IMG/VR virus record: IMGVR_UViG_3300035670_001190
Coordinates: 1-24,652 of that record
Source of the DNA: a virus
Direction: 5' to 3' (one strand)
Length of the DNA stretch: 24,652 nt
The notes beneath the pieces are model-generated. The model searched no databases. It was not told the DNA's origin and saw only the letters and a program-made list of their open reading frames with translations. The stretch's first letter is position 1; the number at the start of each line of letters is the position of its first letter. A program made the position numbers and the translations under genes. Shown in pieces: positions 8,223 through 24,609 of this stretch.

Positions 8223-9145
8223 GGCATACTCGTTTCAGGGACACCAGTGCCACTACCAGCAGCACCAAATACACGTTCAGCAAATTGTGCGAAACGGAAA
8301 GCATTAGCTTCTGGGCCAGCAGCACGGCGAATCTTCTGTTCGGCAAGGTTCTGCAAATCCATCGGCTCAACACGGCGACCACCCGACATCGGCAAACCAG
8401 TTTGTGATTGGACTTGGGATGCTTGGAACTGTCGAACGATTTGGTCAACAACGTTTTGGTCTGCACTACGCCCAAGAATCTTCGAGGACACCTGTTGAAC
8501 AATCTTCTTGATGTCTTCAGGGTTGGAAACCCTTGGTGGCAATGCGCCAGTTCCACCGCCAATGGGTGAAGCTGTGGCGGTGCTGAGGGCGGTGTTCCAG
8601 TCCACATTGGATCGGTTGGCTTCACCGAGCAGTTCTACCCATGCTTTGCGTGTGGCGTCGTCAATGACACCGATACGGTATTTGCTTCCAAGTAGACCCG
8701 ACTTGTTGAGTTTGGCTTGGATGTCTGCAATTTGGTCACGGCTGAAACGAGAAATGAGGTCTGCGTCGCGTTCAAAGTATCGTGGTGCGAAACCTGGTGA
8801 TGCGCCGTATGGGGTGACTACGGTTCCGACTCTGGTTGTGGTACCTGGGATGGTGGCACCGGAGGCGATGTCAACTCGACGGCCACCTTCAAGACCGATA
8901 GCGGATTCAAAGCGGTCGGTATAAGTTTGAGTTGCGCTTGGGTTGAATGTTGGTACTGCGCTTCCGCCACCGATTTGCGTATTCGTTCCAGCGCCCTGCG
9001 ATACGAGGGCAAACAACTGTTGGATTTGCGCCGACTTGGACGCCATGTTGGTGTTCTGGTCAACGATTTGTTTCAGTTGTGGAGGCAACTGGTCATACTT
9101 CGCCTGATCGTCGGGCGACAGATTTTTGCGTGGTTTAGATGCCAT
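8219..9145 (-). CDS. Minor virion protein with possible peptidoglycan-binding-like unit, 308 aa
   Basis: Residues about 130-175 read LISRFSRDQIADIQAKLNKS, then GLLGSKYRIGVIDDATRKAW and VELL. This has the helix - G - D..T..A rhythm of peptidoglycan-binding-1-like modules (lQ..L...G.l...yr.G..d..T..A...ll), though the match is weak. The N-terminus (LPPQLKQIVDQNTNMASKSA) is helical. Residues 51-115 are Gly/Thr-rich and probably flexible. The C-terminus has a long helix ending NAFRFAQFAERVFG. The start overlaps the stop of the 1608-aa gene (TAATG). It may travel with the large protein as an ejected or internal component. Confidence 0.75.
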   Translation of the reverse strand: MASKPRKNLSPDDQAKYDQLPPQLKQIVDQNTNMASKSAQIQQLFALVSQGAGTNTQIGGGSAVPTFNPSATQTYTDRFESAIGLEGGRRVDIASGATIPGTTTRVGTVVTPYGASPGFAPRYFERDADLISRFSRDQIADIQAKLNKSGLLGSKYRIGVIDDATRKAWVELLGEANRSNVDWNTALSTATASPIGGGTGALPPRVSNPEDIKKIVQQVSSKILGRSADQNVVDQIVRQFQASQVQSQTGLPMSGGRRVEPMDLQNLAEQKIRRAAGPEANAFRFAQFAERVFGAAGSGTGVPETSMP

Positions 9146-12100
9146 TAGTCCTCATCAACTATGAACTCATACGATAACACTTGCTCATACACGTCCCTGA
9201 AGGAAGGGTTCTGTTGGATGAGGGATGGCGCCAACTGCTCTGACAGGTAGAGGCGAAGTGCTTTTGCGGCTTTGACGGTTCCCCAGTTGCCCACGTTCAC
9301 GGTTTTGTTTGAGGCAATCATGGCGTCAACGGCTTTGTCGCGGGCATCAAAGTATGAAGCCAAGGTGCGCACAACCCCATTTTGTTGCAAATCTGGGTTG
9401 GCGACGATGGCACGCAACTGGGAAAGTTGACGGCGCACACGCTCTTGGGAGTCCTTGCGTTGCTCACCAGGGGGCGAATACAGTGGCAAATCGGTAGTAA
9501 TTGCTTGCAGTTTTTCAGCCAAAAGGCTACGAACTTGCGGCATCTTCAACTGATCTTCGGTGAAGTTGTCCCTGAAACCGTAGTAGAGGTAGTTTCCGAG
9601 ACGTTGTTGGGCTTCCTGTGATGCGGTTTTGGCATCCTTGATTTCTCGACGTCCAGCCTCGGACTGCTGTTGCCATGCCTCAAAGGTGCGGTCACCCGAA
9701 CGTGGCCCAAGATAGCCAGCAACCAGCGGATACTGGTCAACCAGACCTTTGTTTTCGCTAGCCCAAGCGTTGAACTCTCGGCTTGCAACCTGCCCGCCGA
9801 TATTTGAACGGGTCAATGTGCCGGTGTACGGCCAGACGATTTCGCCCCAGAAGTCCAACCATTCACCGAACGCTTGTGAACTTGGCAATCCGAGTTTCTG
9901 TTTGTCTTCTTGGCGTTTGTACAAATCGTCCATCACGATTGAGGCATCAACATTACCGTACTTTGTGTTGGTCACCCATTCCGTGAGGGTTGCGCCTGGA
10001 CCAGTTGCGGAAACGAAACCACGAAATGCTGACAGTTTGTTGGCAATAGATTCAGCTTCTTCAAATGCAGCAGAAAAGCCGTCTTCGCCAACATACTTTT
10101 CTGGGTAACTGTTCAACAAGAATTGGTGCGCCCGAATGATGGCTTTTTGTTTGTAGTCAAGATTTTCTGTGTCAAGCAATGCTTCACTAAGACCAGTAAT
10201 AACACCGATGTCTTTTACTACTGGTAATTCGTATAGGTATTGCGCCATTTGCGACCAGACTGGCGGGAATGGTCCAAGTGTTTGACGTGGGGTTGTATAA
10301 CCGTACGGTGAAACGATGTCACGCAACCAGTCATAATCAGGCGTGGGGGGCGCAAAATCGTTGACGGCGTACTGGATTACTGGTCCGAAACCTGGGCGCA
10401 TTTGCAGGGCGATGTTCACGGCATCCGTACCGACGGTGAAGTTGCGGATGATTGTTTGGTCTGAGCCAATAAGCATGGAAGCAATTTTGCCGGTCATTGG
10501 CAATTCAAATACCTTGCGACCATTCTGATCGGTGGTAAATACGCCGTCGTTTTGTGAGGCGTCAACGAATTGTGCGGTGTTTCGAACGATGCGAGGGTTC
10601 ATTGCCATGAGACGTAGCCACGTGCTTGTTACTTCTCGGAACGCTTCAAAGAACGGGAACAGAATCTTATGTTGCGTAGCGAACACCGAACGACGGTTGG
10701 CGTTGAATAGCAGGTCGTTGGTTGCTCGTGTAGCGAACTGTTCGGCAAGGATGTTGGCTCCTTCCAAGGTGCCTTCGCCTCTTGCCATACGAGCCGCCGT
10801 TTCAATTCGTTCCAGTCTGGTTGCGGTCAGTCGTGCTTTCTTGGCTGCATCCAGTGTTGCACGTGCATCAAACTTCGTCATCAGTGGGACGAGTTCTTCC
10901 ATGCGGTTCCAGTAGTTTGCTTTCCAGCTTGGGGATCGTGCTGCAAAGTCCGACACTCGACCGTACATTTCTTGGAAGTAGAAACCGTACAGTCGTTGCA
11001 ATCCGCGTGCAATACCGACGCCTTTTTGCGGTGTCCACTCGGCAGAAGACAGTTCGCGTACAGGGAAGAACTTCACTTTTCGTGGTGCGTGAGGCAAGTT
11101 CACGAAATTGTTGGCAATCCACGCTTCCAAATCTGGAGACACAGAACCACGCCCAGTCACTTCCTTGAACACGGCACGACCACCCTGATACTCGCCCTTG
11201 GTGATGACATCCAAAAGTGTTTGATCCATGCCAGTAACCCAACGGATGTCATTGTTGAGAATCGTTTCAACACGCTCGGACGCAACAGCGTATGAGTCGT
11301 AGCCTCCACCCTTCATCCCAGGCTTGAGGTTCGCAAGGTTGTCAAAGTATTGGTCAAAGAAACGGCGTCCCTCGCCGTCAAACAACCAAAGTTTTACCGC
11401 ATCCAAATCGTTCGTAAGCCGTTGACCGGTGTACGGGTGGTTTTCGCCTGCCGCAATGTGGTCGGCAATGCTTTTGGTTTGTCCGTTGATGGTCACCAAA
11501 TCATCGTCAAAGAGTTTTTGGGCGGCAATACGGCGATAGTCCTCGTTGTATGCCATGTCCACAACTTCTTGCACGACACCTTTCACCCAACCACCGCGCT
11601 GGTTTTGGATGGTCCGATCAGGGAGTTGCATGACGCCACGGCGTACCATGCGCAGGTAGACGGGTGCGTATTCGCCGGTGGCTGAAGCCATAGCGCCTCG
11701 GCTTCGAGGGCCGATGAGGACATCTTGGATGGCTTGTGGTGAGGCGTTGATTTTGGCGGTCAGGTTGGTAATCTTCTGTTGAATCTCTGGGATTTCGTCA
11801 ACCAGTTTTTGTTGTTTGGCGGTGATACTTGCGCCTGTTGCCGCTTGCGCTTGATACTGTTTGGCTTCAATCAGCACATTGTCCAGTTCGTCAAGTTGGG
11901 TGTGCATTTTGATGACGTTGGGAATCTTGCCTTTGATGACATTGCCTGTGGCATCACGACGCAGGGTGGTGGTGAGCATTGCCAACATTTGTTCCATCGG
12001 ATGTTCATAGATGCCTGATGCTGCACCTCGTAGGACTTCTTCTGGTACGACTCGGATGAGGTGGCTTGGTTTGGCTACGCGGGCTGGTTTCCAATATCCG

Positions 12101-13971
12101 CCCATGTAGTTGCGAACGCCGTCAGCCAATGCCTCGTAGCCTTTGAATCCTTTTCCGATGACTGGTATTTCTTGGCCGCCACGAACGAAAGCGCCAGCCA
12201 ATCCAGACAATCGAACGATTTCTTCAACGACTTGTTTTGGCATCACGTAGTAGTCGTCGCCCATCAACTGCGACAAACGCAATGGACCGATACCGTCACC
12301 GTCAAGCCAAGGCAAAGGAACACCGTTTCCGATGTCGTCGGTGGCGAACAGGCGAACTTCGTCAGCCATCTTCTGTGTCCACGAGGTCAGTTCACGGATG
12401 GCATCTTCTGGCAACAGTTGGCGATTCGTACCAGGGAATGTGATTTCACGGAGACGGCTGCCGACGGCTTGGTATTCAAAGTCCCGCAAGAAAGTGAACA
12501 GTTCATCTTTTGATCCTGAAGCTGCTACGAAGAATCGGGATAGCCAGTCGTTGCGGTCTTCCAGTTTGAATCCGAATGACCCCATCAAGTTGTCCAAGTT
12601 GCGGGCAGACTGAGGGACATCAGTCAAGCCAATCTTTGTGTCTTCTGGCAGGATTTCTGTTATTCGGGTAGTTAGTTTTTCTGGCCCTACAGGAAGAGGA
12701 TTTTGGAAACCTTTTTGGGCTTTGTATTTGATGACGTTTCCATCACCCATTCGGATTGAGTCCAGTCGGTTGCGTCCGAGGTTACGCAAATTGAAACCAG
12801 GTTCAAAGGATGCGACACCTTCATCTACGATGCGCCATACGTCGTCAATGGTTGTGTTGGGGTTGGCAAGTTCTTGCACGAGACGGGCAGCGGTTTGTGG
12901 GCCTTCACGGTTGAGTACCGTGCGCCATACTTCGCCAGCGTTCAGACGACCAGAACGCACACCGTCCATGAGTGTTTGTGCCCATTCGGTTCCTGCTGCC
13001 GAGGCACGCCAACGCTGATAGTTGTTTTGCACCATCGAAGGTGCCACATCTACGACTGCACCGGTTTGAATTGGGGCGTTGTTGAGCATGTCGTCAACGT
13101 CTGGTCGCCATGCTTCGTAGATGTCACCAGCGTTGTAGGACTGAACCGTTTTGGTGGTGCCTGGGAGTAGTGGGTCGTTGACTTCACGGCTTAGGGTTGG
13201 TACGACACGGCTTGTCAAATCGTTGAACAGTGCAGACTTGGCTGTTTCGTCGGGGGTCAACTGTCGTGGGGCGATGGCAAGTTCTTCGCGCAGGTTGAGG
13301 ATTTCGTCTTCCAACTGGTTGAACGAATTGGCAAAGTCTTGTTTGGCAATGATTTTGGTGTTGGCGGTAGCGGAAACGGATTCTGCTCCGATACCTGCTG
13401 GACGGATTTTGCCAATCCAGTTGAACGGATCAACGGGGTTCTTGACTGCTTTTACGATGTCTACTGCGCCAGAGGTCATCTTGTAGAGGATGGAATCTTG
13501 TGAGTACAAGCCGAGGGCTACTGGCGGATATGCGGCTGCTCGACCTAGGGTGAATGGCAGTTCTCCAACTTTGGGTCGGTCGGACAAAATGTTTTCTTGC
13601 GAACGGCGCAACGCCTCACCACCTGGCAGATAGCCGGTGCCGACATCGCTTGTTCCTTGCCCGAGAATGAGTTGGTCTTTTAGGTTGGTTGCGTAACCGA
13701 ATGTTCCTTCTCGTTTGACGCGTTCCAAATATTCTTTGCGTTTGAACACCGACTCGTAGTTGTCGGCCATGATGTACTCAAAAAGGTTTGCTGCGTCAAA
13801 CGCCACGGTTGTCGCTGAACGAATCGTCGGCTTCAGCGCATAATCTTTGATGCCTTGGACTGAACCGTATTTGACCAACGGTTTCTCAATCTGGTCTGGT
13901 ACGACCGACGACAACGCGTTATCAAGCCATTTGTATCCGCGTTTCGCCCAATCAAAATCCCAGAAGCTCAC
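9145..13971 (-). CDS. Very large presumed virion protein, 1608 aa
   Basis: This is the longest gene in the window and I do not recognise its family. It starts MSFWDFDWAKRGYKWLDNAL and is a mixed alpha/beta, mostly helical protein without a clear signal peptide. Around residue 1105 it has KILFPFFEAFREVTSTWLRL, followed by MAMNPRIVRNTAQF and repeated Pro/Tyr-rich stretches such as FAPPTPDYDWLRDIVSPYGY. I see no catalytic motif for lysozyme, transglycosylase or protease. Position between portal and scaffold, and size, suit an internal head or ejection protein. A giant minor capsid protein or tape-measure-like role cannot be excluded. The GTG start overlaps the upstream stop (GTGA). Confidence 0.88.
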   Translation of the reverse strand: MSFWDFDWAKRGYKWLDNALSSVVPDQIEKPLVKYGSVQGIKDYALKPTIRSATTVAFDAANLFEYIMADNYESVFKRKEYLERVKREGTFGYATNLKDQLILGQGTSDVGTGYLPGGEALRRSQENILSDRPKVGELPFTLGRAAAYPPVALGLYSQDSILYKMTSGAVDIVKAVKNPVDPFNWIGKIRPAGIGAESVSATANTKIIAKQDFANSFNQLEDEILNLREELAIAPRQLTPDETAKSALFNDLTSRVVPTLSREVNDPLLPGTTKTVQSYNAGDIYEAWRPDVDDMLNNAPIQTGAVVDVAPSMVQNNYQRWRASAAGTEWAQTLMDGVRSGRLNAGEVWRTVLNREGPQTAARLVQELANPNTTIDDVWRIVDEGVASFEPGFNLRNLGRNRLDSIRMGDGNVIKYKAQKGFQNPLPVGPEKLTTRITEILPEDTKIGLTDVPQSARNLDNLMGSFGFKLEDRNDWLSRFFVAASGSKDELFTFLRDFEYQAVGSRLREITFPGTNRQLLPEDAIRELTSWTQKMADEVRLFATDDIGNGVPLPWLDGDGIGPLRLSQLMGDDYYVMPKQVVEEIVRLSGLAGAFVRGGQEIPVIGKGFKGYEALADGVRNYMGGYWKPARVAKPSHLIRVVPEEVLRGAASGIYEHPMEQMLAMLTTTLRRDATGNVIKGKIPNVIKMHTQLDELDNVLIEAKQYQAQAATGASITAKQQKLVDEIPEIQQKITNLTAKINASPQAIQDVLIGPRSRGAMASATGEYAPVYLRMVRRGVMQLPDRTIQNQRGGWVKGVVQEVVDMAYNEDYRRIAAQKLFDDDLVTINGQTKSIADHIAAGENHPYTGQRLTNDLDAVKLWLFDGEGRRFFDQYFDNLANLKPGMKGGGYDSYAVASERVETILNNDIRWVTGMDQTLLDVITKGEYQGGRAVFKEVTGRGSVSPDLEAWIANNFVNLPHAPRKVKFFPVRELSSAEWTPQKGVGIARGLQRLYGFYFQEMYGRVSDFAARSPSWKANYWNRMEELVPLMTKFDARATLDAAKKARLTATRLERIETAARMARGEGTLEGANILAEQFATRATNDLLFNANRRSVFATQHKILFPFFEAFREVTSTWLRLMAMNPRIVRNTAQFVDASQNDGVFTTDQNGRKVFELPMTGKIASMLIGSDQTIIRNFTVGTDAVNIALQMRPGFGPVIQYAVNDFAPPTPDYDWLRDIVSPYGYTTPRQTLGPFPPVWSQMAQYLYELPVVKDIGVITGLSEALLDTENLDYKQKAIIRAHQFLLNSYPEKYVGEDGFSAAFEEAESIANKLSAFRGFVSATGPGATLTEWVTNTKYGNVDASIVMDDLYKRQEDKQKLGLPSSQAFGEWLDFWGEIVWPYTGTLTRSNIGGQVASREFNAWASENKGLVDQYPLVAGYLGPRSGDRTFEAWQQQSEAGRREIKDAKTASQEAQQRLGNYLYYGFRDNFTEDQLKMPQVRSLLAEKLQAITTDLPLYSPPGEQRKDSQERVRRQLSQLRAIVANPDLQQNGVVRTLASYFDARDKAVDAMIASNKTVNVGNWGTVKAAKALRLYLSEQLAPSLIQQNPSFRDVYEQVLSYEFIVDED

Positions 13972-16469: not shown

Positions 16470-18446
16470 TCATATCCAGGTTGGGCGCCACATGCGTGGT
16501 GGACGCTTCACTGGACCGAGTTGAGGCATGTGGAGTTCTGCGAACCAGTGTGCCATTACGAGGTCGGTGCCGTTCTTTTTGTTGCGAGTCCAACTGGACA
16601 TTTCCTCAATGAAGGCGAGTGTCTTCCAGTTTTCTCTCATTGTCGGCAACCGTATTTGCCCTGCCCGCCATAGTGGGGGGAGTAGTGCTTCGACACCTAG
16701 GTTTTCGTCTAGTTTGTTGCGGGAGGTCGTATGAGGAACAACCATGACACCGTGAAGGGCTTGCCATTTGCGAACGAAGTCGTGAGCCAACAGGAAGCGT
16801 TGGGCGGCGTTGACTTCCACAATCCAATGGGAGATCGGGTAGCCCATCTCGAACGACCTGTTCTGCCAAACCTCCATTATGCCGCCGTACTGTCGGCTAG
16901 AGGTATCAAAACCAAGTAGCTCCTCAGCGGTCAGTTTGGTTCGTTCAACGTCTATCAGGTAGCGCAGGTTGGTGTTCGGTTGAAATAGCCACCATTGGAC
17001 TGCCCAAAAGTTTGTGGGGCTGGGGTCTACGGACGCAATCGAGATGATTGGGGGTTCTAGGCCGCCTGGGATGTAGCCGGCTTTGCGGTCACCGTCAATG
17101 CACCCTGGGTACAGTACGCCGTCGTTGCCCATGCCACCTGTTGCCCATACGCGTTCAATCAAATATTGGCCTTGTGCCATGTCTTCTTGCTGATAGATGA
17201 CTTGGAACTTGGCGGGCGTCGAATGTTTCAGATATGAGAGGTCTTTCCACGACAGACGGTATGGGTCAAGTAACGGTCCGTTGGGCCATGGTGGTGCCGT
17301 AGTCTTACGAGATTCCCTGCCGGTGTCAAGTTCGTCGTAGTAAGCCTTGTAAATAAAGTGGGTGTACTTGGATTTTTTTTCTGGTTCTTTGACGTCGGAA
17401 ATGTCGGTGACGTCGGACCCGTCGTACGCGTCAGGGTCCTCCTCGTAAGTCACTTTGGACAAACAGTGGGCGTAGAGATCACCTGGCCCCAACCGCTGAC
17501 CGATGACAGCCAACAAGCCACCTGGGTCGACGCGTGCCTCAGCGACGGTATCCCACCGTTCCAAAAGTTTGTCGCGGGCAACGGACTCTTTGGCGTTCTC
17601 TGGGGTTGCCACGTCGTCGAACAAACAGAGGTCGGCACGATGACCGATGAACTCTGAGTCAATACCATACGACGACACCGTAGGTTCCTTGTTATCCAAA
17701 CCAGACAAGTCTTCTTGTTCAACGATGAACTCCTCGGCACGCCACAACGCACCTGACGACGACGGTTTGAAACGCCCATAGTCGATAGAGAGGCAGCCTT
17801 CGGCGTTGAGTGCCAACCCTTTCTCCACAAGAATCGGATCAGGACTAAGAGGAAACGGTCGTTCCAACGTCTCACGAATACGACGCGAGTACATCTTCGC
17901 CAACGTTTGCGTAGCCGAACCAATCAGCACACGAATCTTACGATTCCGCACAATCATCCAGCACGCGAAGTCGTGAAACAGTGTTGATTTGCCGGCTCCT
18001 GGTGGACAGTTGATGCAAATGAACTCTTTCTCCGGTGATTCCAACATTTGCACAATCTTGTATGCGGCATCTACCTGCCACGGGGATGGGACACGACCCA
18101 AATATCGTCGACGAAAGTAATCAAAATCATCCCAACCACGTTGCGCCTCTGGGCTGAGACGCTCATAAGGGATAACAGGTGGCAAATCTGCGACATCCAT
18201 CGCATGTTTCCATGCATCATTCTGTACACCACCCTGCTTTTTGCGAACTTGACCGACTTCTACTTCAGCAAGTTTGATTTCGGCAGCAGCTTTACGTCGT
18301 TTCGCTTCCCACTGTGACGCAGTGTTGGGGTGGATGCCAGCAATTTTTGCCGCATCTTGTATAGACATCCCTGATGCTCTGGATTGCCAGTAGCGGGCTA
18401 CGTCTTGTGGCGGGATTTGCCGTCTCCCCGAACGACCAGCAGGCAT
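16470..18446 (-). CDS. terL: Terminase large subunit with fused N-terminal HTH, 658 aa
   Basis: This is the ATP-driven DNA packaging motor and nuclease. A helix-turn-helix-like segment lies at about 26-50 (MSIQDAAKIAGIHPNTASQW), before the usual TerL start. The ATPase domain shows Walker A CPPGAGKST (147-155) and Walker B LCLFDDVAT (273-281, acidic residues 277-278). The RNase-H-like nuclease has candidate metal ligands at D474 (ASVDPSPTNFW), E544 (WIVEVN) and D628 (GTDLVMAHWFAELH). Length is somewhat above the typical 450-600, explained by the added N-terminus. It is coupled to the 277-aa gene by TAATG and precedes the portal. Confidence 0.96.
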   Translation of the reverse strand: MPAGRSGRRQIPPQDVARYWQSRASGMSIQDAAKIAGIHPNTASQWEAKRRKAAAEIKLAEVEVGQVRKKQGGVQNDAWKHAMDVADLPPVIPYERLSPEAQRGWDDFDYFRRRYLGRVPSPWQVDAAYKIVQMLESPEKEFICINCPPGAGKSTLFHDFACWMIVRNRKIRVLIGSATQTLAKMYSRRIRETLERPFPLSPDPILVEKGLALNAEGCLSIDYGRFKPSSSGALWRAEEFIVEQEDLSGLDNKEPTVSSYGIDSEFIGHRADLCLFDDVATPENAKESVARDKLLERWDTVAEARVDPGGLLAVIGQRLGPGDLYAHCLSKVTYEEDPDAYDGSDVTDISDVKEPEKKSKYTHFIYKAYYDELDTGRESRKTTAPPWPNGPLLDPYRLSWKDLSYLKHSTPAKFQVIYQQEDMAQGQYLIERVWATGGMGNDGVLYPGCIDGDRKAGYIPGGLEPPIISIASVDPSPTNFWAVQWWLFQPNTNLRYLIDVERTKLTAEELLGFDTSSRQYGGIMEVWQNRSFEMGYPISHWIVEVNAAQRFLLAHDFVRKWQALHGVMVVPHTTSRNKLDENLGVEALLPPLWRAGQIRLPTMRENWKTLAFIEEMSSWTRNKKNGTDLVMAHWFAELHMPQLGPVKRPPRMWRPTWI

Positions 18447-19279: not shown

Positions 19280-19301
19280 GAGTGCCTGCTAGCATACACG
19301 C

Positions 19302-19359
19302 TGCCGGTCGGCGTTGATCGCATATGGGTTGTGCGACGGGTTGTTGGCGTCGACCGGCA
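19302..19359. repeat. 9-bp inverted repeat upstream of the virion operon
   Basis: TGCCGGTCG (19302-19310) and CGACCGGCA (19351-19359) are perfect inverted copies 40 bp apart, centred about 50 bp before the ATG at 19279. Both are bordered by copies of CCTGCTA (19286-19292 and 19360-19366). They could be paired operator sites or cleavage/packaging signals next to the terminase genes. Confidence 0.55.
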
Positions 19360-19703
19360 CCTGCTACACTCAACACGCCACGTCGAGAGACGCGCACAAC
19401 ACCCAAAGAATACGGACCCTAAACGATTACATTCCTCCTCGTCAGAATCATCGACGAGGGCAGCATGGTTAGATCGCACGGGATGAGTGGCCTGAAAAGG
19501 GGACCGATGGTGGTCGCCTTCTTTCGGTATCAAGACAGACGGGTTCAGGCGTAAAACAGAACTTGGGGGGGCTAAAAAGGTCAAGGGCCTGACGCCTCGC
19601 ATACGCTCGTTGTCCTAGCGCCCTCACATACGTTCGGTTGCTACCACTGGTGCTCAGACGACTTCGAGAACAGGCGCGACCAGGCGCAGCACAAAAGATA
19701 ACC

Positions 19704-19730
19704 TACACCCCGCCTCCACCCCTCCCCTCC
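19704..19730 (-). other. G-rich tract, possible quadruplex on minus strand
   Basis: The plus strand is almost pure pyrimidine, so the minus strand reads GGAGGGGAGGGGTGGAGGCG and on into three more G. Two- or three-tetrad G-quadruplex folding is possible. It lies in the divergent control region. Confidence 0.4.
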
Positions 19731-19956
19731 GTGCATACACGGCGCGCCACAAACACCCGCAACCTCACGCGCCCCGTGACCCAACCACAAAAATGACCAC
19801 ACAGAACAACCCTTATACATACCCATACGCGGGGGTGCCTCGGCAGATGCCCCGTGGTGCGAACGTTTGTTTGGGCGAACGCGTGTTTGCGGATCGCTAC
19901 GCTCTGTGGTTGCGACTACGGAGAGTGACCGGCTGCGGAGAGTGGTCGCATCACCA

Positions 19957-19972
19957 CAGTACTAAAGTACTG
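19957..19972. repeat. Perfect 7-bp palindrome CAGTACT-AA-AGTACTG
   Basis: This 16-bp near-perfect dyad in the control region has the size and symmetry of a dimeric repressor operator. It directly abuts the next inverted repeat. Confidence 0.6.
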
Positions 19973-20008
19973 CTAACTATTGCTAGCACTTTGGGTTCGG
20001 TAGTTAGC
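19972..20008. repeat. 8-bp inverted repeat GCTAACTA / TAGTTAGC
   Basis: Arms at 19972-19979 and 20001-20008, perfect, with a 21-nt loop. It sits between the 19957-19972 palindrome and the 15-bp tandem repeat, making a dense cluster of symmetric sites about 90 bp before the predicted plus-strand promoter. Confidence 0.55.
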
Positions 20009-20024
20009 GGTTGCCTCCGCCTAT

Positions 20025-20054
20025 GTTACTTGGGGGTAAGTTACTTGTGGGTAA
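20025..20054. repeat. 15-bp tandem repeat, two copies
   Basis: GTTACTTGGGGGTAA is followed directly by GTTACTTGTGGGTAA, one mismatch apart. The second copy is dyad-like when extended by one base (GTTAC-TTGTGG-GTAAC). Tandem near-identical sites suggest binding sites for one protein, such as operators or replication iterons. They lie about 40 bp upstream of the predicted promoter. Confidence 0.6.
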
Positions 20055-20094
20055 CCTGGTTGTGTTGCGGTTGTGTTACTTTTTGTTTCTGTCC

Positions 20095-20123
20095 TTGCAT
20101 CCGATAACGGTATGCCGTATCTT
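20095..20123 (+). promoter_or_regulatory. Putative promoter of plus-strand block 1
   Basis: TTGCAT (20095-20100), 17-bp spacer, TATCTT (20118-20123). An imperfect dyad GATAACGG-TATG-CCGTATC (20103-20121) overlaps the spacer and -10, as an operator would. It lies 40 bp before the first plus-strand start codon. Confidence 0.45.
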
Positions 20124-20130
20124 TGAGGAT

Positions 20131-20158
20131 GTCGGCAAGGAGCCGACAGAAAGAGAGA
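20131..20158 (+). promoter_or_regulatory. Leader 1: hairpin plus AGAAAGAGAGA motif
   Basis: GTCGGC-AAGGA-GCCGAC (20131-20147) is a perfect 6-bp stem. The purine motif AGAAAGAGAGA (20148-20158) follows at once, ending 5 nt before the ATG at 20164. The same 11-mer precedes two other plus-strand genes. The motif probably acts as, or includes, the ribosome site. Confidence 0.65.
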
Positions 20159-20163
20159 GAGAT

Positions 20164-20508
20164 ATGTCCAGATTGTTCGGAGTCACTTTCAGGGTGAGGG
20201 AGGGCGATATGCCCTCGCTCATCACTAGCGATAGTTCAGATCCGTTGGATTGGGATAATCGCGTCGCGGAGTTTGGCGACGTGTTTGTGGCGCGAGAGTT
20301 TGCGGAGGAGTGCTATGACACTCTCACGGAGATGAGCGCATATAAGGGCGATTGGCAGAGTCTGATGGTGGATGTCGTGGAGTTTGAGGGATGTCAGGAG
20401 TGTGGCGCGTACGTGTTCCGTTTGCCTGAGCCTGATTCGGATTACTTTCACGTCGGCGCGAATTGTGCGCACGGTCAGAACCTCGCGCACGTTGAGGTTG
20501 CGGTATGA
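20164..20508 (+). CDS. Unknown acidic protein, 114 aa (block 1, gene 1)
   Basis: I chose the ATG at 20164, which follows the shared leader; an upstream in-frame start at 20011 would add 51 residues read from the control region. The product begins MSRLFGVTFRVREGDMPSLI and is Asp/Glu-rich. It contains GDVFVAREFAEECYDTLTEM, GCQECGAYVFRLP (one CxxC) and HVGANCAHGQN, so Cys/His residues might bind a metal. No family is recognised. It overlaps the next gene by 4 bp (ATGA). Confidence 0.72.
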   Translation: MSRLFGVTFRVREGDMPSLITSDSSDPLDWDNRVAEFGDVFVAREFAEECYDTLTEMSAYKGDWQSLMVDVVEFEGCQECGAYVFRLPEPDSDYFHVGANCAHGQNLAHVEVAV

Positions 20509-20780
20509 ATAACGAAATACTCTCATTTATTTACGAACCGTCAGAACGTGGAAACGTCTGCCAGATTACCGTCGGGAGTGACGCCGACGGCTATCTAGTG
20601 GAGTGGCACGATTTCGTTGCGAACGATTGGATAGAGCGTTTTGATTCGCTTGCCGTTGCGTTAGCGCGTGTTGCGGCCTTGGTTCATTGCGGTTCATCTG
20701 ATTGGGCGCAAGGGTTCGCTACTGACGCTAAAGCGTTTGCGGTTGTTGCCGAACAATTCTTGGATGAGGTGACCGTATGA
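20505..20780 (+). CDS. Unknown small protein, 91 aa (block 1, gene 2)
   Basis: The product starts MNNEILSFIYEPSERGNVCQ. A short beta section (ITVGSDADGYLVEWHDFVAN) is followed by helices (DSLAVALARVAALVHC, and AFAVVAEQFLDEV at the end). It is acidic and Trp-containing, with no known motif. ATGA overlaps at both ends make it part of a coupled block. The beta-then-helix layout is common in small phage host-interaction proteins, but that is not evidence of function. Confidence 0.7.
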   Translation: MNNEILSFIYEPSERGNVCQITVGSDADGYLVEWHDFVANDWIERFDSLAVALARVAALVHCGSSDWAQGFATDAKAFAVVAEQFLDEVTV

Positions 20781-21025
20781 GGCTAACTATCGACGGGCAA
20801 CTATTCGCTACGGCGTTATCGGTTCCCCTCCATGTCAACGGCTACGCCCAACCGGTTTTTTCTGCCGAAGAACGGCAACGGATTTTGGCGGAGTGTGTTC
20901 GGTTGGGTTGGGATGCCCCGAACGATGACTACGACGGAATCCCCTCCCACCTGGCGGGGTGGGAAGAGCTGCCTGATGGTACTTGGACGGTCGAGGGTTG
21001 GGTATGGGAGGAGGTGCAAGGATGA
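20777..21025 (+). CDS. Unknown acidic Trp-rich protein, 82 aa (block 1, gene 3)
   Basis: The product MRLTIDGQLFATALSVPLHV continues to FSAEERQRILAECVRLGWDA and ends in a strongly acidic, Trp-rich stretch, GIPSHLAGWEELPDGTWTVE and then GWVWEEVQG. The high Trp/Glu/Asp content is shared with other proteins of this island. No domain is recognised. It is coupled by ATGA to the membrane protein gene that follows. Confidence 0.7.
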   Translation: MRLTIDGQLFATALSVPLHVNGYAQPVFSAEERQRILAECVRLGWDAPNDDYDGIPSHLAGWEELPDGTWTVEGWVWEEVQG

Positions 21026-21183
21026 TGACCCTCGCGGTTCGTTTCCTGGTGACCGTCGGCGCGGTTGCCATGGTGATGCTATGGGCGCTCTATGTTCTAT
21101 GGGATGCTCAGGGCCGACGCCAAACGTTCGGCAGCCAGATCGGTTCGGCGGTTCGTTGGATGCTCAACATCCCCCGCCGATAG
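21022..21183 (+). CDS. Small single-pass membrane protein, 53 aa (block 1, gene 4)
   Basis: ATG at 21022 overlaps the previous stop (ATGA). Residues about 4-27 (LAVRFLVTVGAVAMVMLWAL and YVLW) form one membrane helix. The tail is short and basic (DAQGRRQTFGSQIGSAVRWM, then LNIPRR). It ends block 1. Holin, superinfection-exclusion or other envelope roles are possible in principle; a holin would usually lie near an endolysin and none is seen here. Confidence 0.68.
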   Translation: MMTLAVRFLVTVGAVAMVMLWALYVLWDAQGRRQTFGSQIGSAVRWMLNIPRR

Positions 21184-21192
21184 TGTTATCAT
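21164..21192 (+). promoter_or_regulatory. Putative promoter of plus-strand block 2
   Basis: TCAACA (21164-21169, 4 of 6 to TTGACA), 17-bp spacer and TATCAT (21187-21192, 5 of 6) preceded by TGT, an extended -10. The same TGnTATCAT occurs at 4606-4614. It lies inside the end of the preceding gene. Confidence 0.45.
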
Positions 21193-21197
21193 CAAAA

Positions 21198-21232
21198 TGG
21201 GGGGCAACCCCACCAACCCAAAGAAAGAGAGA
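21198..21232 (+). promoter_or_regulatory. Leader 2: hairpin plus AGAAAGAGAGA motif
   Basis: TGGGG-GGCAA-CCCCA (21198-21212) forms a 5-bp stem. AGAAAGAGAGA is at 21222-21232, 7 nt before the ATG at 21240. From AACCCA onward it matches leader 3 almost base for base. Confidence 0.6.
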
Positions 21233-21239
21233 AAAAGAA

Positions 21240-21803
21240 ATGAAAATAAAAGAAATAGCCGACGCGGCTCTACGCCTGGCGGCCATGGAAGAAGAAATGC
21301 AGACACTCCGCGAAACGGTCAAGGCCGACACGCCAACCCTCGACGCGCTGTGCCTCGCCGTAAATAGTTGGGGCGAATTGCGAAAGCGTGACGCCCTCAC
21401 CGTTGAGGCAACCGGCGCCGAATGGCAACGAACCTTGCACAGCTCAGGCGCTTACCTCGATGCCGTTGCATATGTCATCGTAAAGCGTGACGGCAGCCAA
21501 CAGCGAGGGCAGCTCAATATCCGAACGATTGCTACGCACGAATCAGGAACCGTATCCGCATCAGGATGGGACACGCACGACGGAAGACACGTCATGTTCT
21601 CCGCGTATGTTTGCCACGTCGAACTACCCGACGCGGCACGGAAGATCATCAACGAAAAACTATCTGAAACATGGAGCCAGGTCGCTCCGTGCGTGCCGAC
21701 AATATGGAATGAGGCTATGACCTATAAGGCCGCCCGTAGTGTGCAGGAAAAACACTACGACGCCGTAGAAAACATTTCGCGTCTCATCGTGGCGGTGAAA
21801 TGA
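21240..21803 (+). CDS. Unknown protein, 187 aa (block 2, gene 1)
   Basis: This is the largest protein of the island. It starts MKIKEIADAALRLAAMEEEM with a coiled-coil N-terminus (to about residue 30). A beta-rich middle follows (SSGAYLDAVAYVIVKRDGSQ, then LNIRTIATHESGTVSASGWD and HVMFSAYVCHVEL), and it ends in helices (AARKIINEKLSETW, VQEKHYDAVENISRLIVAVK). I recognise no family or catalytic motif. The start is fixed by the shared leader. It overlaps the next gene by 4 bp (ATGA). Confidence 0.75.
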   Translation: MKIKEIADAALRLAAMEEEMQTLRETVKADTPTLDALCLAVNSWGELRKRDALTVEATGAEWQRTLHSSGAYLDAVAYVIVKRDGSQQRGQLNIRTIATHESGTVSASGWDTHDGRHVMFSAYVCHVELPDAARKIINEKLSETWSQVAPCVPTIWNEAMTYKAARSVQEKHYDAVENISRLIVAVK

Positions 21804-22048
21804 TGTCTACGCTCAATGTTTGCGTCGATTGCGCAATGCGAGGGGCGAACGGGTACGAACCCGACGCCGTGGACTACTCCAACGGTCACCCGCAACGATA
21901 TGAGGCTGCCCTAGTAGCCAATGATGGAGCCGAACCGTACCCAACCGGCGAAAGCGAACCCCACTTTTCGTGGACGGCGTGCCACTATTGCGGAGACATC
22001 AACGGCGGAGATCGAATCGAATCCCAACTAGTAGGAGGTAGAAAGTGA
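21800..22048 (+). CDS. Small zinc-ribbon-like phage protein, 82 aa (block 2, gene 2)
   Basis: Two CxxC pairs, CVDC (about 8-11) and CHYC (about 61-64), make a plausible zinc site. The segment FSWTACHYCGDINGGDR resembles the FSW..C..CG..LGGDR ending of small actinophage proteins of unknown function. The ATG overlaps the upstream stop, and the next gene starts with a GTG overlapping this stop (GTGA). Nucleic acid or protein binding is possible; there is no direct evidence. Confidence 0.78.
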   Translation: MMSTLNVCVDCAMRGANGYEPDAVDYSNGHPQRYEAALVANDGAEPYPTGESEPHFSWTACHYCGDINGGDRIESQLVGGRK

Positions 22049-22389
22049 TTAGCGTCGAAACATTATTCCCAAGTGGGGACCTTGAGCTGTCGGCCTTAGT
22101 GGGTGACGGGCGGGCGCCTGGCGCTTACTACGAACGGCAAAGATATTCGGGTTACGGCGAAACAGAGGCGCTCCGTCTCTTTGTGACCTATCTCTATGCG
22201 CACGGGAAACGCATCGACGACGGCGACCTAGTATTTGAGGCTCCTTGCCGGTCATGTCGCTCCGTATGTCTGACGGACGAATGGACGGCAGGCGGCCCCT
22301 ACTTTGGGAGCGGTTGCGAATGTGGCGGTGACGTCGATACGGATGCTTGGCAGCTCTCCGACGAACCTCATCCGTCAGTGTGGGGGTGA
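22045..22389 (+). CDS. Unknown protein with Cys knuckle, 114 aa (block 2, gene 3)
   Basis: A GTG start at 22045 is supported by GGAGG 6-10 nt upstream. The N-terminal half (SVETLFPSGDLELSALVGDG, then GYGETEALRLFVTYLYAHGK) has a helix. The C-terminal half carries CRSC, another Cys and CECGG, a possible second zinc site. It is acidic overall. No family is recognised. It sits next to the zinc-ribbon-like gene, so the two may be related in role. Confidence 0.72.
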   Translation: MISVETLFPSGDLELSALVGDGRAPGAYYERQRYSGYGETEALRLFVTYLYAHGKRIDDGDLVFEAPCRSCRSVCLTDEWTAGGPYFGSGCECGGDVDTDAWQLSDEPHPSVWG

Positions 22390-22390
22390 C

Positions 22391-22687
22391 ATGACCCGCC
22401 GAAATGGGGGGTACCTAGATGGGGGGCGGGGTTCGGTTCGCGCCTCCTGGCGCCTCCTGACGCGTGTTTTGGATGAGGTTCGGCACGGTTGCGCCGTTTC
22501 GAGGGTAATCGTGCCGACGTTCGGCACGGCACTGTTTATCGTCCTACCGGTCACCGCTACCACGGGATCATTGACCGCAACACTGACCGCAATGGCAGCC
22601 GTCTACCCGTTCTGCCATCTCTATTTTCGATACCGTGCCCGCCACGGTATCGGCAGCAATGTCGGCCACCATTCCGGTGACCGCTAA
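22391..22687 (+). CDS. Small membrane protein, 98 aa (block 2, gene 4)
   Basis: ATG at 22391 lies one base after the upstream stop. A basic N-terminus (MTRRNGGYLDGGRGSVRASW) is followed by a helix and two hydrophobic segments, about 38-55 (SRVIVPTFGTALFIVLPV) and 58-80 (TGSLTATLTAMAAVYPFCHL). It ends in a basic tail. The DNA is unusually repetitive: G-runs, a 10-bp tandem repeat and two palindromes lie inside the gene. Function is unknown. It closes block 2 as the 53-aa membrane gene closes block 1. Confidence 0.65.
   Translation: MTRRNGGYLDGGRGSVRASWRLLTRVLDEVRHGCAVSRVIVPTFGTALFIVLPVTATTGSLTATLTAMAAVYPFCHLYFRYRARHGIGSNVGHHSGDR
22440..22459. repeat. Perfect 10-bp tandem repeat GCGCCTCCTG x2
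   Basis: Two adjacent identical copies lie inside the 98-aa membrane protein gene, just after a G-rich stretch (runs of six G at 22406 and 22421). Confidence 0.6.
22510..22528. repeat. Palindrome CGTGCCGA-CGT-TCGGCACG
   Basis: Perfect 8-bp arms with a 3-bp centre, inside a gene. GTTCGGCACGG also occurs as a direct repeat at 22478-22488 and 22519-22529, so half-sites are present three times within 50 bp. Confidence 0.55.
22628..22652 (+). other. 10-bp hairpin before leader 3
   Basis: CGATACCGTG-CCCGC-CACGGTATCG is a perfect 10-bp stem with a 5-nt loop near the end of the 98-aa gene, about 40 bp before leader 3. There is no T-run, so it is not a classic terminator. It could be an operator, attenuator or RNA-processing site. 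Confidence 0.65.
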
Positions 22688-22693
22688 CCCAAC

Positions 22694-22704
22694 AGAAAGA
22701 GAGA
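22694..22704 (+). promoter_or_regulatory. Leader 3: AGAAAGAGAGA motif
   Basis: This third copy of the 11-mer ends 4 nt before the GTG at 22709 and so decides that start. Flanking bases (AACCCAA before, AAAAG after) match leader 2. Confidence 0.65.
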
Positions 22705-22708
22705 AAAA

Positions 22709-23035
22709 GTGAACACAGAAGATATTCATGCACTTGCCCGCCGACATGGTACGGAGGCCGCGCATCACTTTTGGCAGCTCGACCCTGCCGAATATGACAT
22801 GGCAACCGAATGGGTACGCAACGCCGACGCCGGCACCATGCAGGAGTATGACATACCAGGACCGTTCGATGAGATGCCATGCGATCTCAACACGGACGGA
22901 TGGGATTGGGATGATATTGCGACATACGGTGCCGCATGGGAGGCTGCATACCTCAATGCAACCACAGAACTATGTCGGCAAGTAATCTCCGCCGACGACA
23001 TGGCAGCCGCCAATGAGGTTCGACATGAACGGTAG
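22709..23035 (+). CDS. Unknown acidic protein, 108 aa (block 3, gene 1)
   Basis: The GTG start at 22709 follows leader 3. The product begins MNTEDIHALARRHGTEAAHH and is strongly acidic and Trp-rich, with FWQLDPAEYDMATEWVRNAD, LNTDGWDWDDIATYGAAWEA and a final helix. I recognise no motif. Acidic, helical small phage proteins sometimes mimic DNA or bind host enzymes; that is only a possibility. It overlaps the next gene by 11 bp. Confidence 0.72.
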   Translation: MNTEDIHALARRHGTEAAHHFWQLDPAEYDMATEWVRNADAGTMQEYDIPGPFDEMPCDLNTDGWDWDDIATYGAAWEAAYLNATTELCRQVISADDMAAANEVRHER

Positions 23036-23198
23036 GACGACGTTCACCGACGCGTGGGCTACCGCGCTCGCCGCCACCCTCATACTCGGTATCACTACCG
23101 GTAGCCCTACCGACGGCTACGGAGTGTGGGCCGCGAGGTTAGTTGGCTCTCTCGCCGTCAGCTACCTGGCGTGGCGTGCGTGGCATCGCCGTCGATGA
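23025..23198 (+). CDS. Small membrane protein, 57 aa (block 3, gene 2)
   Basis: The product MNGRTTFTDAWATALAATLI has two hydrophobic segments (about 9-27 and 33-51, the second GVWAARLVGSLAVSYLAW) and a basic end RAWHRRR, a likely hairpin in the membrane with positive cytoplasmic tail. An in-frame ATG 4 codons upstream (23013) is an alternative start. It overlaps its neighbours at both ends (11 bp and ATGA). Confidence 0.65.
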   Translation: MNGRTTFTDAWATALAATLILGITTGSPTDGYGVWAARLVGSLAVSYLAWRAWHRRR

Positions 23199-23461
23199 GA
23201 CGGTATCTTTACCGCCGTCTCGCCCATTCGATACGGCAACCCGAACCAAAGAAGATGTGGGCCGTGCGTCGTAATCGTGACGGCGCATGGTGGGCTGGAC
23301 CGTATCGGTGGCGTGGTGAAACGTTCACACCGCTACCGCGTCGCGCATATGTGTGGGGTAGTCAGCCGGCTGCGATGTCGGCGGTGCAATGGGGAGGTTG
23401 GCAAGGGGTGACCGTGGTTGAGGTTGATCCTGTCGTGTTTAGTCGGCGGAGACGCCGATAG
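23195..23461 (+). CDS. Basic protein, 88 aa (block 3, gene 3)
   Basis: ATG at 23195 overlaps the previous stop (ATGA). The product is Arg/Trp-rich: MRRYLYRRLAHSIRQPEPKK, WAVRRNRDGAWWAGPYRWRG, then YVWGSQPAAMSAVQWGGWQG, ending SRRRRR. It is basic, unlike the acidic proteins of the island. No family is recognised. It is the last plus-strand gene and ends in the hairpin at 23443-23458. Confidence 0.68.
   Translation: MRRYLYRRLAHSIRQPEPKKMWAVRRNRDGAWWAGPYRWRGETFTPLPRRAYVWGSQPAAMSAVQWGGWQGVTVVEVDPVVFSRRRRR
23443..23458. terminator. Hairpin between convergent operons
   Basis: TCGGCG-GAGA-CGCCGA, a 6-bp stem with a GNRA-type tetraloop, covers the end of the last plus-strand gene, 28 bp from the end of the opposing zinc-ribbon gene. 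There is no T-run on either side, so termination would be weak or factor-dependent. Confidence 0.35.
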
Positions 23462-23485
23462 TATCGAGGTGGCGGCCTGCCCGAG

Positions 23486-23635
23486 TTACTCTCTCTTTCT
23501 TGGGCGGGTCGCCATTTCTACGGCTGTTGAGCCGTGAGCTTTCGGGTTTCTGCACATCGGCGGCTGTGTCGCCTGGACGTGTAGCACTACTGTTTGGCCG
23601 CAACGTGGACATTCGTAGCGCACAGATTTTTTCAT
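23486..23635 (-). CDS. Zinc-ribbon protein, 49 aa
   Basis: ATG at 23635 overlaps the methyltransferase stop (ATGA), so I prefer it to a start 20 codons upstream. The product begins MKKSVRYECPRCGQTVVLHV and continues QATQPPMCRNPKAHG. The CPRC pair plus the later Cys and a His make a plausible zinc site. This YECPRCG..V.LHV....P..C pattern is common in small actinophage proteins next to DNA-modification or replication genes. Its role is unknown. Its end converges on the last plus-strand gene 24 bp away. Confidence 0.82.
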   Translation of the reverse strand: MKKSVRYECPRCGQTVVLHVQATQPPMCRNPKAHGSTAVEMATRPRKRE

Positions 23636-24609
23636 AGTTTGAGGAGTTGTTCCGCGATCCATTGGGCGACGGGTGAGGCTACGCCGTTGCCGCATTGTTT
23701 GTATCGGTGGGTGTCTGATTGTCCTGCTGTCCAGTCATCAGGCCAGCCCATGAGTCGTTCACATTCGAGTGGGGTAAGGCGTCGGACTGCCATGGTGGGT
23801 TGCTCTGCGATGAACATTTGGGCGTGGTGTGATTGCGGGCTGGGGCGTAGAGCCGACAGCGAGTTCGCTTTGTCTAGTTCGGTTGCCGAGAACGTGTTGG
23901 CTTTGGCATCCTCGCGCACAGAGTAAGCGACGGCTTGCGCACCGGTTCGGTCGATGGTGTACGCAGGTGTGCCATCGTCTGCTACGCCGATGCCGTTCTG
24001 GTTCTTTTCCATTTCACGTCCGTCTTGTATGGGGAAGGCGATCATTGGTGTGTTGCCTCCGCCGGTGCCCATTTTGCTGGTGAGTGTTTGGGTGATGCCG
24101 TCTTGTGCGATGCGTGCAGCGTCACGGTATGAGTTCTCAAACACGATGGGTTCGGTGATGAGTTTGCCGTCTCTTGCACCTTCATGATTCGCCCCTTTGT
24201 GGTCACGGGCTTGAAGTGATCCGACGATGACGGTGGTGGTGCGTGTGTCGCCTTGGTCGAAGGCGTTGAGTGTGGGGTTGGGTTGATTTGCGACCCATGT
24301 TTCGTCGTCGGTTGCTGACTGAGGCCGCTTCGATTTGGTGAACGGTTCAACGACAACTTTGCCTTCGTTGACGTATTGGTTACCGACGCCTTTGTAGTCA
24401 CGAGCGGCCAGCGAACCGACAACCATGTTGATACACTCATCACCGCTCGGTCCACTAGAGCCTTTACTCCATTTGGAGCTAATGGACTGTCTTAAGACTC
24501 CTTGTTCGTTGGCTCCGGCTGGCCATTGACTACCGCTTCCAAAGCTTGCTGAAGTCTCGCTGGGAGTTGTTTGCCTCGTCGTGTGGCTCGTCGCAGGATG
24601 CCACTGCAC
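23632..24609 (-). CDS. Phage DNA cytosine methyltransferase, C-terminal part (in a different frame from its upstream part)
   Basis: The C-terminus has the last motifs of a C5 cytosine methyltransferase: RRLTPLECERLMGWPDDW (about 276-293, motif IX region) and GNGVASPVAQWIAEQL (307-322, motif X). Upstream is a spacer with twice-repeated VVGSLAARDYKG (63-74) and VIVGSLQARDHKG (127-139), typical of phage methyltransferases of this class. Homology by eye starts near SSKWSKGSSGPSGDE (from about 24480). Upstream of that, the family sequence is in another frame. This frame is open to the window edge; no start is certain and 24609 is a GTG. Catalytic motifs I-VIII would lie outside the window. Confidence 0.8.
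   Translation of the reverse strand: MQWHPATSHTTRQTTPSETSASFGSGSQWPAGANEQGVLRQSISSKWSKGSSGPSGDECINMVVGSLAARDYKGVGNQYVNEGKVVVEPFTKSKRPQSATDDETWVANQPNPTLNAFDQGDTRTTTVIVGSLQARDHKGANHEGARDGKLITEPIVFENSYRDAARIAQDGITQTLTSKMGTGGGNTPMIAFPIQDGREMEKNQNGIGVADDGTPAYTIDRTGAQAVAYSVREDAKANTFSATELDKANSLSALRPSPQSHHAQMFIAEQPTMAVRRLTPLECERLMGWPDDWTAGQSDTHRYKQCGNGVASPVAQWIAEQLLKL

Follow-up and report, generated by a model that had tools for sequence, protein, structure and literature searches.

The window analyzed here is the whole virus record IMGVR_UViG_3300035670_001190, a stretch of 24,652 bases in which the terminase, portal, and capsid genes lie on the minus strand and a divergent plus-strand block holds small unknown genes. 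Within this early block we examined a repeated 11-mer, AGAAAGAGAGA, termed here a start-associated sequence (SAS), whose plus-strand copies and the genes behind them are as follows (nt, nucleotides; aa, amino acids).

20148-20158, plus strand: SAS copy 1, AGAAAGAGAGA, kept as AGAAAGAGAG in the relatives L005, L006, L010, and L011.
21222-21232, plus strand: SAS copy 2, AGAAAGAGAGA; the same leader end stands before different genes in L006 and L010.
22694-22704, plus strand: SAS copy 3, AGAAAGAGAGA, 6 nt behind the upstream stop TAA (22685-22687).
20164-20508, plus strand: first gene of block 1, 114 aa, unmatched in Pfam and PHROG; its L006 homologue is internal, with an AGGAGG ribosome-binding site.
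21240-21803, plus strand: first gene of block 2, 187 aa; the same leader heads other genes, of 194 aa in L006 and of 117 aa in L010.
22709-23035, plus strand: first gene of block 3, 108 aa, GTG start; its L006 and L010 homologues are stop-coupled (TAATG) and lack the motif.

The first-pass annotation had placed each copy 4 to 7 nt before the first start of a plus-strand block and never before the internal genes. In agreement with both statements, the gaps from motif to start are 5, 7, and 4 nt (ATG 20164, ATG 21240, and GTG 22709, respectively), and none of the eight internal starts (20505, 20777, 21022, 21800, 22045, 22391, 23013, and 23195) is preceded by AGAAAGAGAGA. These internal starts are mostly stop-coupled, and several have good canonical sites. 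Dinucleotide shuffles put the chance expectation for the motif at 0.01 copies. Leaders 2 and 3 were also said to be alike over more than 20 bases; they share AACCCAA(C)AGAAAGAGAGAAAAAG, with one base inserted, and the likeness holds with that insertion. As for the motif occurring elsewhere and not being kept in relatives, which had been named as telling against the proposal, both checks favor the motif: beyond the early block it has no copy, and four relatives retain it. One more exact copy, the fourth, is located at 23490-23500 on the minus strand, in the 3' end of a zinc-ribbon-like open reading frame (ORF; 23486-23695, minus strand); because L005, L006, and L010 retain this stretch, the copy is probably coding only.

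Upstream of the motif copies, the following promoter-like sites and hairpins were observed.

20095-20123, plus strand: weak sigma70-like hexamers of leader 1, TTGCAT-17 nt-TATCTT, score 7.5; similar hexamers in L005, L010, and L011.
20131-20147, plus strand: leader 1 hairpin GTCGGC-AAGGA-GCCGAC, starting 7 nt past the -10-like hexamer and abutting the motif.
21164-21192, plus strand: promoter-like site of leader 2, TCAACA-17 nt-TATCAT, with a TG preceding the second hexamer; L005 and L010 retain the site.
21198-21212, plus strand: leader 2 hairpin TGGGG-GGCAA-CCCCA, ending 9 nt before the motif; L010 has GTGGGG-GCAA-CCCCAC.
22664-22682, plus strand: weak, imperfect leader 3 hairpin GGCCACC-ATTCC-GGTGACC, seen by eye inside the upstream ORF, at its 3' end.

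Pairing in the leader 1 hairpin is supported because L010 carries GTCAGC-AAGGA-GCTGAC at this place, with both sides of one pair changed. A GC-rich hairpin had been claimed before each of the three copies; the claim stands for leaders 1 and 2 but not for leader 3, whose hairpin is not significant because 37% of random positions hold a hairpin of at least 5 base pairs (bp) per 55-nt window. By a stricter promoter scan, the leader 2 site is the sole sigma70-like site in 19280-23480 (4.2 kilobases [kb]), where shuffles give 2.3, and the leader 1 hexamers are absent from its list. Comparison of the window leaders (20040-22720) with 4227 Rfam families gave no match at E <= 1. Overall, the window would hold one ribosome-binding leader used three times, two of these uses being probably at transcription starts. 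We also observed GATA...TATC inverted repeats (20103-20121, 21179-21190, and 22628-22652) ending 25 to 45 nt before all three motif copies, the one before copy 3 reading CGATACCGTG-cccgc-CACGGTATCG. These repeats could be a promoter, an operator, or chance, the last because such words are common in nearby coding sequence.

Relatives of the window terminase are encoded by 163 IMG/VR stretches, the best 80 of which were used as L005 to L084. Of eight records searched as whole contigs, four contain AGAAAGAGAG, all with the leader arrangement, and an IMG/VR scan for the leader 1 core returned only these four contigs (L005, L006, L010, and L011), three of which also hold the minus-strand copy. Between the window and L010, identity at leader 2 is 97% over the 60 nt upstream but 31% over the initial 90 nt of the gene, and the corresponding values at leader 1 are 93% and 34%, where unrelated 90-mers give a mean of 31% and a highest value of 66%. 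The MRLTIDGQ gene (20777), third and internal in the window, lies directly behind the motif in L010, and the motif-headed window genes 20164 and 22709 are internal in L006, without the motif and behind AGGAGG or TAATG. Because homologues gain or lose the motif depending on whether they head a block, the leader, on these comparisons, goes with the block-head position and not with the gene. Natural gene swaps provide this link, and the relatives reveal what can precede the leader: in the leader 2 slot of L006, a tRNA-like element is followed by the same CCAACCCAAAGAAAGAGAG as in the window. The crude gene caller underrated motif starts and mis-called several window genes, and it was used only for contexts verified against the sequence.

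To cover wider relatives, 55 early regions were searched for 9-mers recurring before starts, and 15 regions in which a purine-rich leader clearly recurs were analyzed. Other relatives carry different purine-rich leaders at the same place, the variants across the groups being AGAGAAAGG, AGAAAAGGAG, AGAGAGGAG, TTAGGAGG, and CAACAAGGGAG. On the early sense strand of the 15 regions, all 56 copies of the group motif precede a start, compared to 9 to 17% of random positions, a count that is partly built in, as outside the window group the motif was chosen by its recurrence before starts. Antisense copies in the same regions number eight, of which two precede a start. Each early region holds 2 to 6 copies, and none occur in the 152 kb of these loci that lie beyond the early region.

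The modules standing before the 56 sites were classified by a scripted rule as promoter-like (23), tRNA-like (19), hammerhead core (3), or none (11). The same classes were assigned to 6.2%, 1.8%, and 0.2% of random sense windows, and to 5.5%, 0.3%, and 0 of antisense windows, for promoter-like, tRNA-like, and hammerhead modules, respectively. The strongest promoter-like sites read TTGACA-17-TATGAT or TATACT, and a hairpin starts a few nt behind them, close to the predicted 5' end; a hairpin of at least 5 bp precedes 44 of the 56 sites, versus 37% by chance. UGG (GUGGU) is frequent in the hairpin loops before the SAS, in promoter-type and tRNA-like leaders alike, and such loops might be the binding site of a protein. 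ARAGORN found 0 tRNA genes, and with them no complete cloverleaf, in 54 loci and the window, and among Rfam members at the gathering level in 15 sources no match helped.

The tRNA-like element of the relatives was described with a covariance model, R1, built from 12 seeds. In 81 sources, R1 gave 23 matches at E <= 5, and 19 of these, seeds included, reached E <= 0.001 and fell in 10 loci; with loci from a pattern scan added, 28 matches at E <= 0.001 were obtained in 22 chosen sources, a set that includes identical rows from near-duplicate contigs and comprises 24 distinct rows. In the distinct rows, 93.0% of cells are paired, and sliding the partner lowers this to 43% or less, a contrast that is large even though the rows were aligned to R1, which favors the model. 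Moreover, 26 of the 28 pairs of the element have changes on both sides, and this covariation shows an RNA structure. The element is composed of a 7-bp acceptor, a variable hairpin (wholly missing from L032 7831-7895), a 5-bp T-stem, and a 7-nt loop, and the acceptor is predicted to stack on the T-stem. Helices 1 and 3 are paired in 98.8% and 96.7% of cells, respectively; the small second hairpin is poorly aligned in R1 (69% of cells paired) and was given no weight. In all 24 distinct rows, position 3 of the 7-nt loop is C and position 4 a purine, and the canonical U54-A58 loop pair is missing in many rows, the likeness to a T-loop being partial. Directly behind the acceptor, [AG]C[AT]A (an R-C-N-A tail) is present in 24 of 24 distinct rows; of 12 more divergent, hand-assigned elements, the script recovered 11, with R-C-N-A in 10 and TGCA in L011.

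The position of the element is likewise regular: it starts 7 to 13 nt behind the upstream ORF stop in 27 of the 28 matches (45 nt in the other), and the SAS lies 3 to 17 nt past its end in all 28. A search of 4227 Rfam families with the element (L015 7950-9000) gave none at E <= 5. Several candidates were rejected. The R1 match in the window (13.1 bits, E 4.4) is noise, and a plus-strand L006 match, the reverse complement of the real one, was excluded. Twister-sister and hepatitis delta virus (HDV)-like folds misfit in the order of parts and had no Rfam match, and a kissing pair of the 7-nt loop with GUGGU, the loop of the next hairpin, was dropped since it fits some rows only. Some elements (L015, L017, L024, and L032) can also be read as promoters, TTGACT-17-TAGGGT, with a spacer equal to the T-arm length, and others have no such hexamers. 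It is an even question whether the relatives hold a new class of intergenic tRNA-mimicking RNA, defined by a 12-bp acceptor/T-arm stack, a loop resembling a T-loop, an R-C-N-A tail, and a place 7 to 13 nt behind a stop and shortly ahead of the SAS, and exchangeable with hammerheads or promoters, which would make mRNA front ends modular via host tRNA-processing enzymes or the ribosome and provide every gene with a start of its own. In the literature searched, with subscription journals mostly outside reach, no description of a tRNA-like element between stop and SAS was encountered.

The same slot holds hammerhead-like ribozymes in three relatives, two of which were scored with the Rfam model.

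L034 8572-8631, minus strand: Hammerhead_II match, 36.4 bits, E 2e-5 (Rfam cut-off 37).
L024 7559-7614, minus strand: Hammerhead_II match, 27.4 bits, E 0.009 (Rfam cut-off 37).

The type II core, CUGAUGA / GAAA, with three stems in type II order is present, the core being found by pattern in L024, L034, and L066, the last a candidate identified by this pattern. In all three, the upstream stop ends 0 to 4 nt before the hammerhead.

Taken together, we favor, with a probability of about two in three (0.66), the reading that these are translation leaders set at made or processed mRNA 5' ends. The 11-mer would be the ribosome-binding part of a standard leader before the first gene of a message or of a processed segment. 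Leaders 1 and 2 would run from a putative promoter through a short 5' hairpin and an A/C-rich linker to the purine-rich SAS and the start, and leader 3 would be the SAS alone behind the upstream stop codon; genes inside a block would depend on stop-start coupling and on ordinary GGAGG-type sites. In the relatives, the stop-to-SAS slot is occupied instead by a hammerhead-like ribozyme of type II or by a compact RNA of tRNA-like shape. The polycistronic RNA may be cut there, by the hammerhead itself in the one case and by host RNase P or RNase Z in the other. Such cutting would give each RNA segment a defined, structured 5' end. Observed in this scheme are the positions, the repetition, the exchange between genes, and, through covariation, the RNA structure, and the promoters, RNA 5' ends, cleavage, and ribosome binding are predicted. 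That similar leaders stand behind a promoter-like site, a hammerhead-like ribozyme, or a tRNA-like fold in the relatives suggests that these phages build message front ends from interchangeable parts.

Several observations weigh against this reading. The window itself has neither a tRNA-like element nor a hammerhead, leader 3 is without a convincing promoter or hairpin, and the stricter promoter scan of the window yields fewer sites than shuffles and is not significant. One L011 copy falls within the terminal part of the upstream ORF and precedes a coupled gene, and in L006 and L010 the leader-3-like position holds AAGGAGAAA instead. The other 40 of the 55 early regions gave no such leader or were not followed, the 56/56 count carries the selection noted above, and the L034 and L024 hammerheads fall below the Rfam gathering cut-off. 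The pairing of the motif with the CCUCC core is weak, -3.3 to -3.4 kcal/mol (CACCUCCU), and would reach -9.6 to -10.1 kcal/mol only with a host 16S tail of the sequence CCUCCUUUCU. The sequence CCUCCUUUCU is the 16S tail of actinobacteria, and extended pairing of AGAAAG with such a tail is possibly the ribosome-binding mode. By comparison, the internal starts 20777, 21022, 22045, and 22391 pair at -9.9 to -13.7 kcal/mol with CACCUCCU.

These pairing values bear on the possibility that the motifs are ordinary purine-rich Shine-Dalgarno sites, the repeats being recently copied leaders that act as normal ribosome-binding sites at non-overlapping starts. All group variants are indeed Shine-Dalgarno-like and at Shine-Dalgarno distance, and leaders 2 and 3 are alike over 20 nt or more, as expected of copies. 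However, the motif is near-invariant over 9 to 11 nt per genome while the internal genes have varied canonical sites, and the core pairing of the window variant is weak; we regard this explanation as rather unlikely. A leader that serves mainly as a recombination boundary, a short common sequence at starts permitting clean gene exchange, would fit the comparison of the window with L010, where the genes differ right behind leaders 1 and 2 and the leader is unchanged. It would account for the conservation across copies but leaves the 4- to 7-nt spacing, the confinement to starts, and the preceding RNA modules unexplained, and it appears distinctly improbable.

The tRNA-like elements might instead act on the ribosome without being cut, a mimic 7 to 8 nt past the stop holding or recycling the terminating ribosome toward the next SAS. 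Their acceptor/T-arm shape with an R-C-N-A tail and their fixed place between stop (7 to 13 nt in 27 of 28) and SAS (3 to 17 nt) agree with this, whereas the hammerhead-like ribozymes that take the same slot point to cutting and start 0 to 4 nt past the stop, not 7; this alternative we hold improbable, if slightly less so than the recombination boundary. The least probable alternative is that the inverted repeats and the leader are DNA sites, promoter or operator, as the TTGACT-17-TAGGGT readings of some tRNA-like elements and the promoter-like hexamers at 23 of the 56 leaders would allow. The arms of the element vary in sequence yet pair, even within L017 (ACCCTAG, GACGCTA, and GGACGGG), and several elements are without any -10-like hexamer, both of which argue against a DNA site.

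The host of the phage group is likely actinobacterial because WhiB exceeds the cut-off in 31 of 35 records searched (L005, L006, L010, and L011 among them) and its sole match in 14 control genomes is in an actinobacterium; in the window record itself, WhiB is not above the cut-off. A pattern scan of host proviruses gave 42 stretches, none of them related, and of 19 pattern matches in genome contigs none attains the covariance model at E <= 0.01. The window DNA had no matching isolate in a phage isolate collection, and a further search gave only a 22-nt chance match. Elsewhere in the window, we observed the following.

9145-13971, minus strand: ORF of 1608 aa with no function assigned, one fifth of the record.
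16470-18446, minus strand: terminase-like protein with a weak N-terminal helix-turn-helix match (residues 25-54, below the Pfam cut-off).
19290-20100: long non-coding stretch between the divergent gene sets, visibly like L006 and containing repeats (for example, TTACTTGtGGGTAA and AGTACTaaAGTACT); a possible origin or control region.
23632-24609, minus strand: C-terminal part of a cytosine DNA methyltransferase, extending towards the record end.

The motif had been likened to the start-associated sequences of cluster K mycobacteriophages, and the likeness holds for behavior (position, non-structural block, and unrelated genes) but not for membership by sequence. As described in PMC3203893, both are short, non-palindromic repeats a few nt before the starts of unrelated genes, mainly in one orientation, confined to the non-structural region, and with an upstream inverted repeat at some sites. 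The gaps of 5, 7, and 4 nt in the window fall within the 3 to 7 nt before predicted starts given there, and the motif stands, as in cluster K, in the non-structural part before different gene families (PMC3203893). On the other hand, the cluster K 13-bp consensus is GGGATAGGAGCCC while the leader here is AGAAAGAGAGA, the leader sequence here changes between relative groups, and there are 11 to 19 copies per cluster K genome versus 2 to 6 per early region here (PMC3203893). The 17-bp imperfect inverted repeats (ESAS) before about half of the cluster K sites, which PMC3203893 judges unlikely as RNA hairpins, differ as well from what we found. No 17-bp repeats were seen beside the window motif, whose hairpins are 5 to 6 bp, and, unlike in cluster K, the upstream repeats here are RNA hairpins or larger folds with pair-preserving changes. 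The function of the SAS in phages was reported as unknown in 2011 (PMC3203893) and as needing experimental verification in 2025 (PMC12699233).

With respect to RNA modules, the closest known systems combine self-cleavage or tRNA processing with phage genes. Theta ribozymes are reportedly HDV-like and tied to real tRNAs. In PMC10879173 they adjoin phage tRNAs, an association of self-cleaving RNA and tRNA features in phages; unlike them, the loci analyzed here had no tRNA gene found in them. According to PMC3088659, type II hammerheads flank phage genes, one lying 13 nt before a start codon, and it may be that long phage RNAs are processed to mRNAs the length of an operon or a gene. The L024, L034, and L066 hammerheads have the same core, permutation, and intergenic place before a start as those ribozymes (PMC3088659) but share their slot and leader with a tRNA-like element and promoter-like sites in the same genomes. 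PMC11143913 reviews how RNase P acts on RNAs of phages and on polycistronic RNAs. The tRNA-like element has the same acceptor/T-arm shape as RNase P substrates, is repeated here before several genes without D and anticodon arms, and is itself a putative substrate. The minimal part recognized by RNase P is a 12-bp acceptor/T-arm stack closed by a 7-nt loop. If the element is cut by host tRNA enzymes, these phages would exploit host tRNA maturation for message processing, and the tRNA-like elements would be small, portable RNA processing parts.

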